Source: Burkholderiaceae bacterium (GTDB taxonomy: Bacteria; Pseudomonadota; Gammaproteobacteria; Burkholderiales; Burkholderiaceae_C). Taken from it: a DNA stretch of 40,584 nucleotides. The DNA is taken from the NCBI GenBank assembly GCA_023150375.1, contig JAKLLA010000028.1, positions 1 through 40,584 of the forward strand, read 5' to 3'. Shown in pieces: positions 1-9,921 of the stretch. The notes below the pieces were generated by a model. That model was given only the letters and a program-made list of their open reading frames with translations, was not told where the DNA came from and ran no database searches. Made by a program: the position numbers and the translations under genes. The first letter of the stretch is position 1. Each line of letters begins with the position of its first letter.

Positions 1-155
1 GGTCCTGTCGGGCGGCCATCAGGCGGCCGTGGTGCCTGCACGGAGCTCTTCGCGCTCTTCAGCATGCGCCCAATGGCGATTGACGTCGGGCGCTCATCGC
101 CATGCGGTCGGTCGCGTGGGATGAATTTCGCAAGGCCGACTAATGAATGGGCGGT
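1..155. other. Left-edge sequence, no confident gene
   Basis: No gene can be called here. The minus strand is open across the stretch and could encode the C-terminal part of a truncated protein (a basic run containing GRMLKSAKSS), but it has no start and I recognise no family. It lies directly against the left inverted repeat of the IS30-type element, so it may be the remnant of a gene the element entered. Confidence 0.3.
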
Positions 156-177
156 TTCAAACTCGAAGTGCAACACC
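156..177 (+). repeat. Left terminal inverted repeat of the IS30-type element
   Basis: The repeat reads TTCAA-n4-GAAGTGCAACACC and matches the complement of 815-836 in 18 of 22 positions. All mismatches lie in the 4-bp block 161-164. Confidence 0.8.
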
Positions 178-184
178 GGCGGGA

Positions 185-796
185 TCAATGGATTGTGGCG
201 CTGGCCTGCTCAGCGATGCCTTGCATGATGCTGAGCAAATCGGCCATGGCATCGAGGGCCTGCTGATCGTGCACGGACAGGTCCGTGCCCTTGGGCATCA
301 TCTGGCGCAGCAGCCCGTTGGTGTTCTCGCAACTGCCGCGCTGCCAGGGGCTGTGCGGGTCGCAGAAGTACACGCGGATGTTGGTGTTGCGAGACAGCTC
401 TCGATGCCGCGCCATCTCCTTGCCCTGGTCGTAGGTCAACGTCTGACGCAGTGGCTGGGCGATGTCGTTGAGCTTGGCCGTGAAGGCCGCCAGCGCCGAC
501 TCGGCCGTGGCATCGGGCATCTTGGCCAGCAGGACCAAACGAGTGGTGCGCTCGACCAGCACCCCCACGGCAGAGCGGTTGCCTGCACCCTTGATCAGGT
601 CACCTTCCCAGTGTCCAGGCATCACCTGATCGCTCACCTCGGGCGGGCGCACGTGGATGCTGACCATCTCCGGGATCTGGCCGCCGAGGTCTTGACCGCC
701 CGAGCGCGGCCGGCGCGTGTTGCGCGACTGGCGCAGGCAGGCCAACGTCACTCGCTCTTCAGGCTGCAGTTGCTTGTATCTCGTCATCATCTTCAC
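185..796 (-). pseudogene. IS30-family transposase, internally deleted and altered at the C-terminus
   Basis: The 203-residue frame opens with the family's N-terminus (TRYKQLQPEERVTLACLRQ). It then jumps straight to the catalytic half (RRPRSGGQDLGGQIPEMVSI, PGHWEGDLIKG, LTYDQGKEMARH, DPHSPWQRGSCENTNGLLRQ). The DDE-region D, D and E residues (HWEGDL, TYDQGKE, CENTNG) are visible. Intact members have about 320-380 residues; the N-terminal HTH and linker, roughly 100 or more residues, are missing. The junction falls in LACLRQ, a motif that family members carry both near the start and just before RRPR, so loss by recombination between short repeats is plausible. The last 20 residues after ALDAMADLL leave the family pattern. 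It is unlikely to make active transposase. Confidence 0.85.
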
Positions 797-814
797 ACCT
801 TACCGGGTCGGCAA

Positions 815-836
815 GGTGTTGCACTTCATTCTTGAA
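815..836 (-). repeat. Right terminal inverted repeat of the IS30-type element
   Basis: This is the mirror of 156-177. It starts 11 bp past the stop codon of the Ig-cytochrome lipoprotein (848-850), so insertion was just beyond that gene's 3' end. Confidence 0.8.
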
Positions 837-847
837 TCCGACCCGGA

Positions 848-2644
848 TCATTGGTTTAGAATCCATGTAACAATTGTCCGCGCATCACTCTCCGATATGC
901 TGTTCGCTGGCATGGGGATCTGACCCCACATGCCTGTGCCACCTCGAATTGTCTTCAGAGTCAAGGTGTCCAGTGCGGCATCATTGCCGCGATATCTCGC
1001 TGCAATATCTCTGAATGCCGGACCCACAAGCTTCTTGTCCAAGGCGTGGCAGGCCGTACAGTTTTTCTTCTGGGCAAGTTTAACTGGATCGGTTTCGCCG
1101 TCGTCAGGTATCGAGGTCGTTGATCTAACCCTGTATGTTTCGGTCCAAAGCGACTGGTTTTCGTCGGAGCCAGTTGCGGTGACGATGAAATGGCCTGGTA
1201 CGTCGGCGATGAAAGTCGCATGAAACGCGTCCTCGAGGGAAATGGAGGATGTGCTGACACGCGGCCGGATGTCGAACCGCCAGCTCACCGTCTTGGTCTG
1301 CGGATGGGTCCTGAAACGGCTGGATGCATCGAGCGAAACGGTTCCTCCGACGACGACATTAACCTTATCTTTCCAGATGGTTTCGCTTTCATTCAGGTAG
1401 ACGATCAAGCTGACCGGGCTGCTGATAACCGTGCCTGCAGCGTTGCTGACCAGTACCCTCAGTTGCATACCACTTGCCGTAGCCTGCGGATTGGTCGTGA
1501 AGGTCGACCTCGTTGCCCCTGTGATGTTCTCGAACGTGGCACCCTTGTCGGTACTGACCTGCCACTGGTAGGTCGGGGTTGGCGTGCCTGTTGCGTCCAC
1601 CCTGAAGGTCGCCGCCGCGCCTTCAGTGATCGTGATGCTGCTGGGTTGGGCTGCGATGGCAGGAAGCGCGCTCCGAGCCTCGACCGTCAATGTTGCGGAC
1701 TCGCTGTATGTGCTTCCTTTGGTGTTGGTGATCTGTGCACGGTATAGCCCGCCAGAGTCATCCGTGGTGGTGGCCGCGATGGAGAAGGTTGCTTCTGTTG
1801 CACCTGCGATGTTTCGGTAGCTGGTGCCTTGGTCGATGCTGCGTTGCCACTGGACGGTCGGAGCAGGCACACCCGTCGCGCCTACCGAGAATGTGGCAGG
1901 CTGGCCCGCGACGACGGTTCTGCTGGTCGGTTGCAGGGTGATCCGGGGAGCCTCGGGTGCGGCGGTTACGCTCAGTTGCGCTTCGCTGCTGGTCACTGAG
2001 CCCGCCTGGTTTCGGACGATCACTCTGAATGTGCTGCCGTCCTGTTCCATCGTCAGGTTCTCGAGCAGCAGAGTGGCGTCGGAGCCGCCTGCGATGTCGG
2101 CCCATGAGCCATCGCTGTTCTTGGACTGCCACTGGTAGGTGGCGGCCGTCCCCTGGGCAGTCACCATGAAGGTTGCACGACCTCCTGCCACGGCTTCTTG
2201 CGAAACGGGTGCGACGCTGATGGCCGGTGGAATCACCTGACTCGTGACCGTCAGGGTTGCCAAGTTGCTCACCGCCTGCCCTGTACTGGCTGTGACGATG
2301 ACCCGGTACAGGCCGGCGTCGCCCGAGGTCGGAGAAGAGATGCGGAGTTGGTGGGTCGTCGCTCCCATGATGTCGACCCAAGTGGCGCCGTCGTTGGTGC
2401 TTCGCTGCCACTGGAAGCTCAGGTCATTCCCTGAGGCGTCGACGGAGAAAGTGACGGTACTGCCCTCCGTCGTGCTGGCACTGGCGGGCTGTCGAGTGAC
2501 GGCGGGCTGCCCAGTCTCGTTCGCCGGCGGTTCGGCCTGCCGCATCGGCGAGCTGTCCGGGCATCCGGCCAGCGCCACTGCGCAGGCGACGACCAGTATG
2601 CGCAGTGCGGACGGGACGATCGACGAGGTGGCGCTGTGTGGCAT
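848..2644 (-). CDS. Lipoprotein with four Ig-like domains, a PKD-like domain and a C-terminal cytochrome c
   Basis: This 598-residue protein is probably an envelope-anchored redox or adhesion protein. A lipoprotein signal ends in a lipobox (ALAGC, Cys28). Four bacterial Ig-like repeats follow at about 45-133, 138-227, 232-322 and 327-417, each with an Ala/Gly-Thr-Phe-x-Val strand and a Y/FQWQ core. A PKD-like beta domain spans about 420-510. The C-terminus is a class I cytochrome c: heme motif CTACH at 529-533 and a probable axial Met578 in WGQIPMPAN, a motif typical of the c551/c8 type. The Ig repeats could hold the heme domain away from the membrane; the redox partner is unknown. It has its own upstream region with paired direct repeats and a CRP/FNR-like palindrome, and lies downstream of a BTAD regulator on the same strand. 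GC content looks lower than in the rest of the window. Confidence 0.85.
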   Translation of the reverse strand: MPHSATSSIVPSALRILVVACAVALAGCPDSSPMRQAEPPANETGQPAVTRQPASASTTEGSTVTFSVDASGNDLSFQWQRSTNDGATWVDIMGATTHQLRISSPTSGDAGLYRVIVTASTGQAVSNLATLTVTSQVIPPAISVAPVSQEAVAGGRATFMVTAQGTAATYQWQSKNSDGSWADIAGGSDATLLLENLTMEQDGSTFRVIVRNQAGSVTSSEAQLSVTAAPEAPRITLQPTSRTVVAGQPATFSVGATGVPAPTVQWQRSIDQGTSYRNIAGATEATFSIAATTTDDSGGLYRAQITNTKGSTYSESATLTVEARSALPAIAAQPSSITITEGAAATFRVDATGTPTPTYQWQVSTDKGATFENITGATRSTFTTNPQATASGMQLRVLVSNAAGTVISSPVSLIVYLNESETIWKDKVNVVVGGTVSLDASSRFRTHPQTKTVSWRFDIRPRVSTSSISLEDAFHATFIADVPGHFIVTATGSDENQSLWTETYRVRSTTSIPDDGETDPVKLAQKKNCTACHALDKKLVGPAFRDIAARYRGNDAALDTLTLKTIRGGTGMWGQIPMPANSISESDARTIVTWILNQ

Positions 2645-2679
2645 CTGGGTTGCTCCGCTGTGTTAACCGTGATGGATGC

Positions 2680-2711
2680 ACGATACGAAGCGGGCGTCAC
2701 ACCTGCGTCAC
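2680..2711 (-). promoter_or_regulatory. Putative BTAD/SARP operator with -10 element, cytochrome lipoprotein gene
   Basis: Two copies of GCGTCAC (plus strand; GTGACGC in the gene's direction) lie at 2694-2700 and 2705-2711, exactly 11 bp apart. Eight bases after the gene-proximal copy is TATCGT (2685-2680), a fair -10 hexamer, while no good -35 is present. Direct heptamers at 11-bp pitch ending 8 bp from the -10 are the published layout for Streptomyces SARP activators. The same repeat recurs at 6545-6562. The site is 50-67 bp upstream of the ATG. Confidence 0.6.
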
Positions 2712-2766
2712 ACCAGACGTCCGGCGATGCACTGCTCACGCGGACGAGAGGTTCGGTCTCGATTGT

Positions 2767-2782
2767 TGTGATTTAAGTCACG
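2767..2782. promoter_or_regulatory. CRP/FNR-superfamily-like palindrome
   Basis: The sequence TGTGA-TTTAAG-TCACG matches the CRP consensus TGTGA-n6-TCACA at nine of ten defined bases. It lies between the BTAD regulator's stop and the cytochrome lipoprotein gene, 123-138 bp upstream of that ATG and outside the proposed BTAD operator. Control by a cytochrome-linked CRP/FNR/DNR regulator is inferred only. Confidence 0.45.
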
Positions 2783-2792
2783 ATATCGGCGC

Positions 2793-5700
2793 TCAGGTCG
2801 GGCGAGGAGTCCTGCTCGGCCGGCCTGCAAGGATGGCCCGGTTGGTGCGGTTGCCGTGCAGGAAGCTGTGCTGGAAGAGTTCAGGCACTTGTTGGGCCGC
2901 GATGTCCGTGATCCATTGCCTGGCGAGCAGCAGCACGGCGTCGGAGGTTCGCGGGTCGCTGTCTCGCAGCGCCTGCGCGATCGTCGACCACACCTGCGGG
3001 GGATAGAGGCCGGGCGGCATGCCGTCGCGTTCGCACTGTTCCAGGAGTCGGTGTGCCATCGGTGCCGCGGCCGACGATCCGCGTGCCTGGGCCATCTGGA
3101 TGCGCAGCAACCGGACGTGGGCAACGAGCATGTATTGCTCGCGCTGCTCGGCCTCCTGTTCGATGGCGGCCAACTCTGTGTCGTCGGCAGCCGCCCCGTC
3201 GGCGCGAGCGCATTCCAGTGCAACCTTCAGGCGGATGTAGTTGCGCCCGAGCGCACCTTCCTCGCGCAGGATGGCTGCAGCCTGGCGGGTGAGATCGGCG
3301 TGCCGCTCGCCGTTGTGCAGACTCACACCGTGGTCACGTGCCAGGGATGCCTTGACCATCAGCCGGATTGCGCCAGCCAGCCGCGGGCTGTCAGGAGGGA
3401 GATCACCGTGCACGATCCGGTAGGCCAGATCGGTGCGGCCCAGCCAGCAGTAGGTGACGGCCAGATCGTTGTCTGCATTGACGGACCACAGCAGGTAGCC
3501 GGCCTCCAGCAGCCCTGCGGGCAAGGGTTCCGCGAGCTTCAGGTATTCCCGAAAGTGTCCCTGGTCCCGGAGAAAGCCAGCCAGGTTCATCTTGTCGACG
3601 AGCAGCGCCGACGCACCGAGGGTGCTGTGCCCATAGCAGGCCAAGCCAGCTTCGACAGCCTGGCGGCCCGCGGCGGTGCGCCCCAGGTACATCAGCGCAA
3701 CCGACTGATTGCAATAGGCCGCACCGGCTGAGACCCAGCGTTGAGCGCGCTCAGCCTCTTGTGCCAAGTGACCGAGCGTGGCGACGGACTCCTGGCGTCG
3801 GTCGGCCAGATCGAGCAGGGTGGCGTACTCGGTCAGCCAAGCCAGGCGGTCATCGACGGACAGTCGCTGCAGCGCAGGGGACGAGGGGTCGAGGTCTCCC
3901 AGCGCCTGTGCCCCCTGGCCCAGGCGCGTCAGTGCCGAAGCCCGATACAGGTGGGCCAGAACGCGGGTTCGATCGTCGCTGCTGGGATCCAGCAGTTCGA
4001 GCGCGTGGTTCGCTGCGTCGAGGGCGAGCGGGTAGTCACCTGCCTCGAGATGGGCGCGGGCCTGGATTTGCCAGGCGGCGGCGCGCTGGGTGTCGGCAGT
4101 GGCCAGTGCCAGCAGATCCTGGCAACGCTGGATCGCCGCAGAGGATTGCAGCTGCTCGATGGTCAGGTTTGCAGCTTGGAGCGCGCAGTCGAATGCCGCG
4201 CCCGGACGTGCGCCCGGGTTGCGTCGATGGCATTCGGCGGCTGCGTCCAGCGAGGCCAACTGCTCTGCAACAGCGTTGCGCAATGCACTTTCCGCCGCTG
4301 CCGCCTCGTAGGCGGTGGCCGCTTCGGCCCACTGGGAGGCGGCGTGCCAGTGCCGGGCAAGGATCGATGGCGGGGTGTGGCGTGAAGCCAGCTTGGCCGC
4401 GATGGCTGCATGCAGCTGGGGCTGAAGAGAGGCGGGGATGGATTCCAGTGCCGCCTCGCCGATGAGGTCATGCGTGAGGCGACCTCCGGTCATCCATTGG
4501 GCTGACTCCAGTTCACGCCAGGGCGGCGCCAGTTCAAAGGCGGAAACGGACAGGGTGGCCGACGCCAGCTCGGCATCGAAGGCCTCGCCCGCCATGGCCG
4601 CCACCTGGGCCAGCGCCAGCGCTCTTGGCGAGAGCTGCGCCAGTTGTCGAGCCAGCAGGGTCTTCAGTTCGTGCGCAGCGGGCAGGCCGATCTGGGACGT
4701 ACCGGGGGATGCTGCCGCCTGCTCACCGAGCAGGCGGAGGGTGCGCAGGACGAACCAGGGGTTGCCGCCGGTGTGGCGTGACAGTGCTTCTGCACTCGGC
4801 AATGACGGCAGCAACGGCCCGAGAGCTTCCTGGATGTCCGTGAGCAGGGCATCCAGATCCGGCAAGGCCAACGGGTGGAGTGGTATGTGCACGACAGACC
4901 TTTGTGCCGAGGTCGGAGGCGACCCGTTCGACGGTGATGGCAGAAGGTCTTCGGCGGGCAGTCCAGCCTCGTGGGCCTGTGCCCATTCGCGCAGGACGAT
5001 GGGCATCTCCGCCTCCCGGCTGGCGAGCACGACGGCCACCTCAGGGCGCTCCCGCTCCGTGGACCACGGCAGGAGCCAGGCCAGCGACGAGGCATCGGCA
5101 TGCTGCAGGTCATCGAAGGCCAGCCCCCGCAACCCCTGCGTGTGCCAGCGTTGCAGCGCCGCCCCGATGGCCCAGCCGATCCGGGTCTGCGAGGCGGGTG
5201 CCGTCGGCGCCTGCCCCCACTCCGGCAGCAGGCGCGCCAATTCGGCCCGCACCGCCTCGTCGGAGAGTCCGGGTGACCAGCGCCGACCACACTCGCGCAG
5301 CAACCTGGCGACCAGGCCGTAGGGCACCCACTCGTCCCCGGGACGTGCACATATGGAAAGGCGGTCCGGCGCTTGCGTCACCCATTCGCCCAGCATCCGG
5401 CTCTTGCCGATGCCCCCCGGGCCAGTGAGCAGGGCGCAGTTCCCGGAGGACAACGCGGTCAGCAGGGTCCTCCAGGGGCCGGACCGCCCGACCAGGCGCG
5501 GAGGTCTCGCGACAGCCGACCTCCACGCCTGAACGGACCCGCTTGCGGGTGATGTCGGTGGCGCGGGAGGCGCGGACGCGAGGGCGAGGCGTTTCAACGC
5601 CCTGGCTTGCGGGCCAGGCTCGACGCCCAGCTGATCTGCCAGCACCTGTTCGCAGCGCTCGTAGGTGGCCAGTGCAGCGGAGCGATTCCCCAGCTCGTAG

Positions 5701-6290
5701 TACGCCTGCATCAAGCGCACGTGGAGCGATTCATCCGTCGGCTCCAGAGCCAGTGCGCGCTCGATGAAAGCCACGGCGCCCGCGGGGTCACGGCTGTCGG
5801 CACATCTGCCTGCGCAGGCCAGCAGGCCGTCGATGCATTTCGCCCGGTGCTGCCTTCTGGCGGCCTCGAGCCACTGCCCGAGCGTGTCGAGCGCGGCCGT
5901 GTCCATGCCAGCGAGCAAGTCGCCAAAGGAAGCCCCGTCGGCCTCAGGCAGCTGGTCAGAGATGTCTCGGGCGTCCACCGAGATCCGTGGTGACAGCATC
6001 AGGACATGGCTGCCGATGACCACTTCGTCGCCGAGAAGCCGGCGTAGTCGCAGAAGGCGCTGCCGCAGGTTTCCCCGGGCGCGTTCGCCGGGAACGTCGG
6101 GCCAGAGCAGGGCCGCCAGCTGCTGTCGACTCCGTTGGCCATCCAGTGCCAGCAGCGCCAGCAACAGCGCGTCCTTGTCTTCGAGCGGGGTGCTGCTGCC
6201 ATCGGACCTCTCGAACCGGGCCGGACCCATCAGGCGCAGCCTGCCTCCCACTCCGTTGGGGTGTGAGATCCCTTGCTCTTTTTGACCCAC
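2793..6290 (-). CDS. BTAD (AfsR/SARP-like) transcriptional regulator with ATPase and TPR domains
   Basis: This large one-component regulator has an N-terminal winged-helix DNA-binding segment (about 18-95), a BTAD helical repeat domain (about 110-245, with the family's LADQLGVEPGPQARAL) and a STAND-type ATPase. The ATPase shows Walker A GPGGIGKS (about 290-297) and a Walker B-like LAFDDLQHADASSL (about 390-402). The C-terminal half is alpha-helical TPR-like repeats. BTAD regulators bind direct repeats and activate transcription, with the ATPase/TPR part gating activity; the input here is unknown. The frame can open at TTG 6296, but GGAGGAGGG at 6298-6306 is 7 bases before GTG 6290 and only 1 base before the TTG, so I place the start at GTG (1165 residues). 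The layout is typical of actinobacteria but also occurs in beta-proteobacteria. Confidence 0.85.
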   Translation of the reverse strand: MGQKEQGISHPNGVGGRLRLMGPARFERSDGSSTPLEDKDALLLALLALDGQRSRQQLAALLWPDVPGERARGNLRQRLLRLRRLLGDEVVIGSHVLMLSPRISVDARDISDQLPEADGASFGDLLAGMDTAALDTLGQWLEAARRQHRAKCIDGLLACAGRCADSRDPAGAVAFIERALALEPTDESLHVRLMQAYYELGNRSAALATYERCEQVLADQLGVEPGPQARALKRLALASAPPAPPTSPASGSVQAWRSAVARPPRLVGRSGPWRTLLTALSSGNCALLTGPGGIGKSRMLGEWVTQAPDRLSICARPGDEWVPYGLVARLLRECGRRWSPGLSDEAVRAELARLLPEWGQAPTAPASQTRIGWAIGAALQRWHTQGLRGLAFDDLQHADASSLAWLLPWSTERERPEVAVVLASREAEMPIVLREWAQAHEAGLPAEDLLPSPSNGSPPTSAQRSVVHIPLHPLALPDLDALLTDIQEALGPLLPSLPSAEALSRHTGGNPWFVLRTLRLLGEQAAASPGTSQIGLPAAHELKTLLARQLAQLSPRALALAQVAAMAGEAFDAELASATLSVSAFELAPPWRELESAQWMTGGRLTHDLIGEAALESIPASLQPQLHAAIAAKLASRHTPPSILARHWHAASQWAEAATAYEAAAAESALRNAVAEQLASLDAAAECHRRNPGARPGAAFDCALQAANLTIEQLQSSAAIQRCQDLLALATADTQRAAAWQIQARAHLEAGDYPLALDAANHALELLDPSSDDRTRVLAHLYRASALTRLGQGAQALGDLDPSSPALQRLSVDDRLAWLTEYATLLDLADRRQESVATLGHLAQEAERAQRWVSAGAAYCNQSVALMYLGRTAAGRQAVEAGLACYGHSTLGASALLVDKMNLAGFLRDQGHFREYLKLAEPLPAGLLEAGYLLWSVNADNDLAVTYCWLGRTDLAYRIVHGDLPPDSPRLAGAIRLMVKASLARDHGVSLHNGERHADLTRQAAAILREEGALGRNYIRLKVALECARADGAAADDTELAAIEQEAEQREQYMLVAHVRLLRIQMAQARGSSAAAPMAHRLLEQCERDGMPPGLYPPQVWSTIAQALRDSDPRTSDAVLLLARQWITDIAAQQVPELFQHSFLHGNRTNRAILAGRPSRTPRPT

Positions 6291-6297
6291 GAACAAA

Positions 6298-6306
6298 CCC
6301 TCCTCC
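6298..6306 (-). promoter_or_regulatory. Ribosome binding site deciding the start of the BTAD regulator
   Basis: GGAGGAGGG on the minus strand ends 7 bases before GTG at 6290. It is too close to TTG at 6296 to serve that codon. Confidence 0.6.
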
Positions 6307-6370
6307 AGCCGGACACTAATCGAGCGTCGACTGGGATTCCTGTGGGTTTGCTCAAGCTTGTATAGAAAAG

Positions 6371-6431
6371 CAGGGGCTGCTGAATGCGCGGAGCAACGTG
6401 CCTGCGTCCTCTGCTCATTCAGCTGCCCCTG
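6371..6431 (-). promoter_or_regulatory. Long inverted repeat in the presumed leader of the BTAD regulator
   Basis: Arms 6371-6386 and 6416-6431 pair over 16 bp with one mismatch (CAGGGGC-T/A-GCTGAATG). The 29-base loop can extend the stem with GAGCA (6391-6395) and TGCTC (6412-6416). If transcription starts near the direct repeats at 6545-6562, this forms a stable hairpin about 75 bases before the start codon. No T-run follows on the minus strand, so it does not look like a simple terminator. A binding site for a dimeric protein is the alternative. Confidence 0.5.
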
Positions 6432-6529
6432 GTCCCTGCTCTATGGCGATCCCTGAGCCTGTGCCTTGTTGTCACCGAGTCGACAGCCTCATTCGCTGCC
6501 GGATGCAGCGGAGCGAGGTGTCCATCAGA

Positions 6530-6562
6530 AGGTTAGCGGTCGAAGCGTCACAGCAGCGTCAC
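6530..6562 (-). promoter_or_regulatory. Putative BTAD/SARP operator upstream of the regulator's own gene
   Basis: GCGTCAC occurs at 6545-6551 and 6556-6562, again exactly 11 bp apart. The 21-bp block 6545-6565 is identical to 2694-2714 at 18 positions. TAACCT (6535-6530) lies 9 bases after the proximal copy as a weak -10. The site is about 255-272 bp upstream of the GTG start, implying a leader of about 230 bases. It suggests that the BTAD protein controls both itself and the cytochrome lipoprotein. Confidence 0.5.
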
Positions 6563-6565
6563 ACG

Positions 6566-6787
6566 AGGTGATGGCCGCCACCGCGTTGCGCGCCCGGCTG
6601 CGTGACTCGACGCGTGCGGGCTGAAGGCGGCGATCCGCCCGGCCATCACCGTCTGTGCGGCGGCACTCGTCGGGAGCGGCAGGGGGTCGGCGCAGCGGGA
6701 ACCGCCGTGGCGTTCCGCGCCGAGGTGCGGGCTGTGCATGCCCGGGTTTGTGGCACGCAAGGAGGGTGACGCATCAGCCTGGCAGCT
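6566..6787. other. Gap between metF and the BTAD operator
   Basis: No credible gene was found. The only structure worth noting is a short GC-rich hairpin on the minus strand (GGCGG-ATCG-CCGCC, about 6627-6640), which could weakly terminate the metF transcript. A single GTGACGC at 6766-6772 has no partner. Confidence 0.4.
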
Positions 6788-7633
6788 TCAGCCCCCCAGC
6801 CCCAGCCGCCGGCAGATCTCCAGCACCGTGGCGCTGGTGTTCATCGTGTAGAAGTGCAGACCCGGCACGCCCTGGCTGCGCAGGCGGTCGCACAGGGCGG
6901 TGACCACGTCCAGGCCGAAGGCGCGGATGCTGGCGCTGTCGTCGCCGAAGCTCTGCAGGCGCAGGCGCACCCAGCGGGGAATCTCTGCGCCGCAGCCGTC
7001 GGCGAAGCGCAGGATGCCGCTGGCGTTGGTGATGGGCATGATGCCGGGCACGATCGGCACGTCCACACCCAGCGCGCGGGTCTCGTCGACGAAGCGGAAG
7101 TAGGCGTCGGCGTTGAAGAAGAACTGCGTGATGGCGGAGTCCGCCCCGGCCTGCACCTTGGCGGCGAAAGCCTGCAGATCGGCCTGCGGCGATCGGGCCT
7201 GCGGGTGCGTCTCCGGGTAGGCCGCCACCTCGATGTGGAAGTGGTCGCCCGTCTCGGCGCGGATGAAGGCCACCAGGTCGCCGGCGTAGCGGAACTCGCC
7301 CATCTGGCCGTAGCCGCTGGGCAGGTCGCCGCGCAGCGCGACGATGCGGCGCATGCCCATGGCGCGGAACTGCGTCAGGCGCTCGCGCACCGACTCGCGG
7401 GTGGCGCCCACGCAGGTGAAGTGCGAGGCGCCCTCGCGGCCCTCGTCCAGGATGGCCTGCACCGCGGCCAGGGTGCCGTCCTGGGTGCTGCCGCCGGCGC
7501 CGTAGGTGACCGAGCAGAACTGCGGGTTCAGCGCGTACAGCGCCTGGCGCACGCCGGTCAGCTTGGCGCTGCCTTCGGGCGTCTTGGGCGGGAAGAACTC
7601 CAGGCTCAGCGGCAAGGAGGGGGAAGTCGTCAT
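6788..7633 (-). CDS. metF: 5,10-methylenetetrahydrofolate reductase
   Basis: This 281-residue flavoenzyme reduces 5,10-methylene-THF to 5-methyl-THF, the methyl donor for methionine synthesis. The N-terminus shows the family signature LSLEFFPPKTPEG. It is followed by the barrel motifs SVTYGAGGSTQDGT, HFTCVGATRE, VALRGDLPSGYGQMGEFRYA, FFFNADAYFRFVD, VPIVPGIMPI and the C-terminal GVPGLHFYTMNTSATVLEICRRLGL. The length is normal. The frame extends upstream to 7804, but that part is low-complexity and overlaps tlyA; ATG 7633 begins the conserved protein 25 bp after tlyA. Last gene of the ahcY-tlyA-metF run. Confidence 0.95.
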   Translation of the reverse strand: MTTSPSLPLSLEFFPPKTPEGSAKLTGVRQALYALNPQFCSVTYGAGGSTQDGTLAAVQAILDEGREGASHFTCVGATRESVRERLTQFRAMGMRRIVALRGDLPSGYGQMGEFRYAGDLVAFIRAETGDHFHIEVAAYPETHPQARSPQADLQAFAAKVQAGADSAITQFFFNADAYFRFVDETRALGVDVPIVPGIMPITNASGILRFADGCGAEIPRWVRLRLQSFGDDSASIRAFGLDVVTALCDRLRSQGVPGLHFYTMNTSATVLEICRRLGLGG

Positions 7634-7658
7634 GGCGGATCCGGTGGGGCCCCTGGCC

Positions 7659-8465
7659 TCAGGTCGCGGCCTTCCTGGGCGTGGACCTGGCGATGGGCTT
7701 GTCGCCGGGCGCGAGGTGGCGCGCCCAGAGGAAGAACTCGGTGTTGCCGTTGCCGCCGGTGATGGGGCTCTGGAAGTAGGCGTGCACCTTGATGCCGTGG
7801 TCACGGCAGCATTGGCGCACGCGGGTTTCGACGTCGGCGAACAGCGCCTTGTTGCGCACGATGCCGCCCTTGCCGATCTGCTCGGGCTGCAGTTCGAACT
7901 GCGGCTTGACCAGCACCAGCAGGTCGCCCTCGGGGGCGAGGTAGCCGAACAGCGTGGGCAGCACGTGGGTCAGCGAGATGAAGGACACGTCGGCCGTGAC
8001 GAAGCCGAAGCTGGCGGCAGGCCAATCCTGCGCGAAGGCGCTGCCGGCCACGTCGCGGGCGTTGATGCCCTCGTAGGCCACCACGCGTTCATCGGCACGC
8101 AGCCTGGCGGCGAGCTGGTCGCGGCCCACGTCCAGGCCCACCACCCTGGCGGCGCCCTGCTGCAGCAGCAGGTCGGTGAAGCCGCCGGTGCTCTGGCCGA
8201 CGTCGAGGCAGGTGCGCCCCTGGACGGACAGGCCGCAGTGGGCCAGCGCGCCTTCGAGCTTGAGCCCACCGCGCGAGACGAAGCGCAGCTCCGCATCGTC
8301 GGTGATCTCGACCTGGGCGGCCTCGGGCACGTCCTCGCCGGCCTTGGTCGGCACGGCCCAGCCCTTGGGGCCGAGCCAGCGCACCGCCCGGCGGTCGATC
8401 AGCCGCTGGGCGGCCGAGCGCGTCGGTGCCAGGCCCAGTTGGACGATCCGCTGATCGATGCGCAT
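7659..8465 (-). CDS. tlyA: TlyA-family rRNA 2'-O-methyltransferase
   Basis: This 268-residue protein is annotated as hemolysin or, better, as a SAM-dependent 2'-O-methyltransferase for 16S and 23S rRNA. An N-terminal S4 RNA-binding domain (about 1-60, RIDQRIVQLGLAPTRSAAQR) precedes a FtsJ-like Rossmann domain. That domain has the SAM-binding motif TCLDVGQSTGGFTDLLLQQG and a K-D-K-E type catalytic set (GGLKLEG, TADVSFIS, LVKPQFE, NTEFFLWAR). It sits 22 bp after ahcY and 25 bp before metF. As a SAM user that makes S-adenosylhomocysteine, it fits an operon controlled by a SAH riboswitch. Confidence 0.9.
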   Translation of the reverse strand: MRIDQRIVQLGLAPTRSAAQRLIDRRAVRWLGPKGWAVPTKAGEDVPEAAQVEITDDAELRFVSRGGLKLEGALAHCGLSVQGRTCLDVGQSTGGFTDLLLQQGAARVVGLDVGRDQLAARLRADERVVAYEGINARDVAGSAFAQDWPAASFGFVTADVSFISLTHVLPTLFGYLAPEGDLLVLVKPQFELQPEQIGKGGIVRNKALFADVETRVRQCCRDHGIKVHAYFQSPITGGNGNTEFFLWARHLAPGDKPIARSTPRKAAT

Positions 8466-8487
8466 GGCGTGTCCTGTCTCGGGTGGC

Positions 8488-9921
<1,434 letters not shown>

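Follow-up and report, generated by a model that had tools for sequence, protein, structure and literature searches.

A direct repeat upstream of an Ig-domain cytochrome gene in this Burkholderiaceae genome is very probably the docking site of the BTAD regulator encoded beside it. In the fuller reading, to which a probability of roughly 0.85 is assigned, the repeat is the operator of this adjacent BTAD protein, a SARP-type activator in Burkholderiales that would control surface proteins as well as itself. The sequence, pitch, -10 register and genomic placement of the repeat, its covariation with the regulator and the regulator's fold were all computed; from them we infer binding, activation, self-regulation and a gating signal.

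The repeat and candidate promoter before the cytochrome gene

Within the window, the whole 40,584-nucleotide stretch analysed, the cytochrome gene and its upstream region contain the following features:

848..2644, minus strand: predicted target gene, whose 598-aa product combines Ig domains with a cytochrome c domain at the C-terminus
2680..2685, minus strand: -10-like TATCGT, 8 nt past the proximal repeat, without a -35
2694..2712, minus strand: candidate operator 1, ahead of the cytochrome gene: direct repeat TGTGACGC-AGG-TGTGACGC with an 11-bp pitch

On the plus strand, GCGTCAC stands at 2694-2700 and again at 2705-2711, the 11-bp pitch that the original prediction described. Read in gene-strand order from 2712 to 2680, the segment runs TGTGACGC AGG TGTGACGC CCGCTTCG TATCGT; the gap between repeat and -10 spans 8 nt (2693-2686), and the cytochrome ATG then follows at 2644. 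The further claim that the proximal copy lies 8 bp from TATCGT with no usable -35 also holds, as a scan of window positions 1-8600 returned no sigma-70-type promoter on either strand. The stop codon of the BTAD gene comes first, 83 nt before operator 1. According to PMC4393881 and PMC7040171, the SARP operators of Streptomyces consist of direct repeats at 11 bp whose 3' repeat lies about 8 bp from the -10, and the geometry here matches them as had been predicted, with two direct repeats at an 11-bp pitch.

The cytochrome protein carries a lipobox-like LAGC, recognized by eye, and CTACH at residue 529. Its gene adjoins an IS30-family transposase fragment (185-796, minus strand) at the contig end. 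Elsewhere in the window, an ordinary SAH riboswitch (Rfam RF01057; 10045-10141, minus strand) lies upstream of an adenosylhomocysteinase gene.

The adjacent BTAD regulator and its candidate promoter

The regulator gene and its upstream region add four features:

2793..6296, minus strand: regulator gene, with a SARP-type N-terminus (winged helix plus BTAD), an AAA_16 ATPase and a weak C-terminal TPR
6366..6430, minus strand: strong hairpin and trailing TTTT in the interval that separates operator 2 from the regulator gene
6530..6535, minus strand: -10-like TAACCT, 9 nt past operator 2
6545..6563, minus strand: candidate operator 2, ahead of the BTAD regulator gene: direct repeat TGTGACGC-TGC-TGTGACGC

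A BTAD regulator is indeed encoded next door, as the original prediction stated, with BTAD, AAA and TPR parts all found in the neighbouring gene. The protein has 1167 residues, and its start codon is TTG 6296 or GTG 6290. Pfam detects BTAD (PF03704, 9.2e-17) and AAA_16 (8.5e-11), the C-terminal TPR_2 match reaches 20.8 bits, under the cut-off of 27, and the same scan gave no separate winged-helix match. Against PDB sequences, the N-terminal 250 residues match AfsR (E 2.3e-8, spanning regulator residues 19-243) and EmbR (E 9.4e-12). An AlphaFold model of this N-terminal part has a pLDDT of 89 and a helix at 70-88, and its only PDB fold matches at E <= 0.001 are again EmbR and AfsR; their TM-scores, taken by query length, are moderate (0.54-0.64). 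The protein follows the SARP order of an OmpR-type winged helix and then a BTAD, and it has the extra ATPase and TPR parts of large SARPs, the TPR lying below cut-off. Within the genus, the regulator is found in 1 of 13 genomes; the module is sporadic, since the other 12 have no ortholog.

Operator 2 was absent from the original prediction and is newly found here. It has the same orientation as operator 1 and lies about 250 nt before the regulator start. At both operators the repeat stands about 8 bp before a -10 without a good -35, as in SARP promoters. We propose that operator 2 is the autoregulation site of the regulator gene. The proposed 241-nt leader, taken as a whole, folds better than 200 of 200 shuffles (z -4.6), and its hairpin at 6366-6430 is a possible attenuator, terminator or small-RNA terminator.

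Elsewhere in this genome, a paralogous BTAD on contig C1 has two operators, TCACGC-TCACGC and TCACGC-TAACGC, and the congener G787 has preserved both together with their -10s.

Rarity of the repeat

Random scatter of the repeat would have spoken against the original prediction. Instead, exact GCGTCAC-n4-GCGTCAC pairs occur at only two places in the 4.63 Mb genome, both in the window and the second at 6545-6562, whereas the single heptamer is unremarkable there (10 copies against 12.8 expected). The third exact TGACGC pair of the genome (C20:43401) lies in coding DNA without a -10. Across 399 genomes of the order, the exact TGTGACGC pair is limited to this genome's two copies; in 150 genomes of the family there are three further sites, two of which adjoin BTAD-lipoprotein pairs, and the third (G069, L039) has no BTAD match on its 20 kb stretch.

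Degenerate operator matches are near background genome-wide: with one mismatch allowed, TGACGC-n5-TGACGC has 45 matches, compared with 33 for the reversed control. A degenerate regulon search in this genome was dropped for this reason. The one-mismatch matches, leaving out C27:828, were checked for coding and -10 context; that at C6:12771 is apparently non-coding and has a weak -10-like GAGATT at 8 nt.

A repeat that arose by chance would agree with the background frequency of the single heptamer in the window and of the one-mismatch pairs genome-wide, but there are only two exact pairs and both lie beside one regulator. Together with the pitch, -10 and control statistics from relatives, this makes chance very unlikely, its probability being almost nil.

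Pitch, spacing and placement in relatives

The BTAD loci of relatives came mainly from protein searches and comprise 52 ORFs in 46 regions, 48 of them with at least 600 residues; L031, whose N-terminus is truncated, was left out of the search model. At pitch 11 there are 21 TGACGC pairs around these BTADs, spread over 16 of the 46 regions; each of the other pitches from 6 to 40 gives 0-4. The 178 other permutations of the hexamer average 0.35 at pitch 11, and the best of them, GACGCT with 7, overlaps the same sites. When the 21 sites are aligned on the repeat alone, A appears at +27 in 17 (binomial 6e-12) and T at +31 in 13 (binomial 1e-6). In a -10 that begins 9 nt past the hexamer, these are positions two and six. 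One site, L137, was fetched by a pattern requiring a -10, so its -10 is not independent; A at +27 is found in 16 of 20 sites without it.

The wider hexamer TNACGC behaves in the same manner, with 39 pairs at pitch 11 in 49 regions and 0-6 at other pitches from 8 to 25. Followed by 9 nt and NANNNT, such pairs number 23 at pitch 11, none at the other pitches from 8 to 24 and one at 25; in unseen loci, the same pattern occurs 4 times at pitch 11 and 0 times at 17 other pitches. A strong -10 lies at 9 nt in 19 of 57 pairs and at none of the other spacings from 3 to 19. The "textbook 8-bp spacing" of the original prediction is therefore accurate for site 1, but relatives mostly have 9 nt between TNACGC and the -10, with 8 nt as a minority form. 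An 8-nt textbook constant is rejected; counted from the hexamer, relatives as a rule have 9 nt.

This register also bears on the direction of control. A BTAD protein positioned over the -35 region could block polymerase and act as a repressor, or bind the operator in some other non-SARP way, yet the weak -10, the lack of a -35 and a distance that relatives keep at 9 nt are consistent with an activator standing in for the -35 contact, making such a role highly improbable.

TGACGC pairs with a -10 at 8-9 nt number 16 in 11 of 399 family genomes, and the reversed-pattern control gives 15 sites in 14 of 399. Site number alone was rejected as evidence, and because the total is not in excess, placement relative to BTAD genes was tested. 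Ten of the 16 have a BTAD gene no more than 10 kb away, compared with 0 of the 15 controls (Fisher 2.5e-4). Chance may explain the site before a malic enzyme gene (G012) and those in G707, G688 and G581, none of which has a BTAD closer than about 10 kb.

Regulators of the OmpR/PhoB type likewise recognize direct repeats with an 11-bp pitch that precede a -10, the Pho box being an example, and the repeat could instead be the box of such a response regulator. Its pitch and its placement relative to the -10 would be identical in that case, but we take the repeat here to be unlike the Pho-box sequence, and both the proximity of the sites to BTAD genes and the covariation of the operator base with a BTAD helix residue (see below) argue against it. 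The SARP DNA-binding domain is itself OmpR-like, according to PMC10936776 and PMC4393881, which speaks for this alternative; a response-regulator box is nevertheless distinctly unlikely.

No TNACGC site accompanies 22 of the 48 BTADs of the first set or 47 of the 59 unseen ones. Other arrangements also occur. One MAG, G580 (L141, L142, L143), contains four TGACGC sites with a -10: two BTAD genes lie near three of them, and the fourth precedes a PEP-CTERM gene with no BTAD in about 10 kb. At L084:6756-6800, a tandem array of three TGACGC copies and one TGAAGC, with an 11-bp pitch, precedes a BTAD gene by about 70 nt; no -10 was found there. TAACGC operators at L065:9766 and 9802 lie back to back in opposite directions within one intergenic region. 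TTACGC pairs at pitch 11, with no -10 match, are located at L289:5564 and L291:288, 82-84 nt from BTAD genes whose helices are near-identical.

Target genes in relatives

Besides the window cytochrome, 17 genes downstream of such sites were scanned, including L140 and L142, whose sites have no BTAD within 10 kb, and L058, L078 (5834) and L079, where the near site is an 11-of-12 match. The PEP-CTERM motif exceeds the Pfam cut-off in 6 of the 17, and L055 is a seventh, above the NCBIfam cut-off. Ig domains in L060 and L062 and a Big_2 domain in L081 are also above cut-off; L077 (Ig), L072 (PKD) and L040 (ZU5) have matches below cut-off only, and the Pfam scan of L038, L041, L140 and L080 gave none. 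Lipobox-like stretches were recognized by eye in 9 of 18 targets, the window cytochrome included. L081, L049, L053 and L041 keep the order seen in the window, with the BTAD stop codon, the site and then the surface gene; L038 and L040 have the lipoprotein gene ahead of the BTAD gene.

By these sequence features, the system is wider than one cytochrome, and many of its predicted targets are lipoproteins or PEP-CTERM surface proteins. The original prediction of a SARP-type operator for a cytochrome is supported in its interpretation, but the cytochrome appears as only one case in a wider class of surface-protein targets. Similarly, the conservation in relatives on which the prediction depended is partly seen: the repeat-promoter arrangement recurs, but no second BTAD/Ig-cytochrome gene pair was found among the relatives' loci.

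Residue 72 and the operator base

The fourth operator base, the N of T-N-ACGC, tracks residue 72 of the regulator. In these residue comparisons, a site counts as promoter-like if NANNNT follows at a distance of 8 or 9 nt, or TANA at 9 nt. The first set contains 26 BTADs with a promoter-like site, from which four ambiguous rows (L077, L060, L061 and L062) were removed before the tree test; they are included in the comparison of 38 BTADs. After removal, the 12 regulators with Arg72 all have TGACGC as both half-sites, and the 10 with another residue all have another base, with 0 exceptions. All 38 BTADs with sites comprise 12 Arg/GG, 1 Arg/other, 2 other/GG and 23 other/other, so that Arg72 is present in 12 of the 14 with TGACGC-TGACGC and in 1 of the 24 with another site type. 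The rule-breakers are L077 (Arg, mixed site) and L060/L062 (no residue 72, TGACGC). Residue 72 is the best discriminating N-terminal column over the 38 BTADs (p 4e-7; next column 1.2e-5), and this covariation between a regulator helix residue and an operator base supports the reading as a SARP operator.

Once the prediction was fixed, 59 unseen BTADs were examined, 6 duplicates having been removed. They yielded 13 promoter-like sites at 12 BTADs (10 AA, 1 AC, 1 CC and 1 GA), and no promoter-like TGACGC pair was found at the 11 unseen non-Arg regulators that have residue 72; the non-Arg L286 has a TGACGC pair inside its reading frame, without a -10. These data cover the non-Arg half of the rule only, as the 59 include no Arg-type regulator with a site. 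By phylogeny, the link corresponds to 5 changes on the best tree and to 2 independent pairs on well-supported (starred) branches, for which a sign test is not significant. In the AfsR geometry, residue 72 is not obviously over base 4.

Comparison with known systems and proposed mechanism

Structurally, the system resembles AfsR and the afs box of Streptomyces coelicolor (PDB 8hvr, 8k60; PMC10936776), which combine a SARP domain, an ATPase and TPR with two 11-bp direct repeats over a missing -35 and a poor -10. PMC10936776 describes a side-by-side AfsR dimer that engages the afs box and sigma region 4, NOD/TPR parts that are inhibitory until ATP binds, and residues T88 and R92 that read afs-box bases, with R92 contacting the repeat T. 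AfsR T88/R92 align with regulator Q79/R83; the contacted T is invariant in the operators here, and the arginine is conserved as R83. Unlike the afs box, given as CGTT(T/C)ATCGNN in PMC10972967, the repeat here is TGTGACGC and does not match the known Streptomyces sequence CGTT(T/C)ATCG. Operator sequences differ among known SARPs, so this mismatch is not disqualifying. Other distinctions from AfsR are the host phylum, surface-protein targets in place of antibiotic regulation, and low sequence identity.

Cluster-situated SARPs of Streptomyces (OtcR and others), as described in PMC4393881 and PMC7040171, share the 11-bp repeats and the distance of about 8 bp to the -10, but are antibiotic-cluster activators with other repeat sequences. 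EmbR of Mycobacterium (PDB 2fez, 2ff4) has the N-terminal fold in common and differs in carrying an FHA domain in place of AAA/TPR (PMC10936776). One survey doubts that proteobacterial matches are typical SARPs (PMC7040171). Among open-licence papers, none was found that joins BTAD with PEP-CTERM or the BTAD domain name with betaproteobacteria and lipoprotein, and no title among the matches listed concerned a proteobacterial SARP operator.

By analogy, the mode of activation may be the same as that of AfsR. Two BTAD protomers would sit next to each other on the same DNA face, occupying the two 11-bp repeats, stand in for the absent -35 contact and keep RNA polymerase at the poor -10. This would switch on the Ig-cytochrome surface lipoprotein from site 1 and the regulator's own gene from site 2, and the AAA and TPR parts would presumably gate activity by nucleotide and a signal, as in AfsR. 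Other BTADs of the family may use T-N-ACGC variants with the same pitch and -10 register before other surface-protein genes, the N base following recognition-helix residue 72.

Biological significance

SARP operators and the sigma-holding mechanism are already known from antibiotic control in Streptomyces. The Burkholderiales may have a family-wide set of SARP-type regulators, many of them paired with their own surface gene (an Ig lipoprotein, a PEP-CTERM protein or, here, a cytochrome) through a T-N-ACGC direct-repeat promoter in which a single residue where the recognition helix begins would determine the N base, with Arg specifying G; the evidence leaves this extension evenly poised. If true, it would mean that the specificity of SARP-type activators follows a readable code, and that bacteria outside Actinobacteria have a mechanism to switch surface proteins individually. 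If the operator reading itself is right, the same machine works in Burkholderiales to control surface proteins, and it would offer a simple DNA signature by which to find the genes that otherwise unannotated BTAD regulators control, together with a testable residue-to-base rule.
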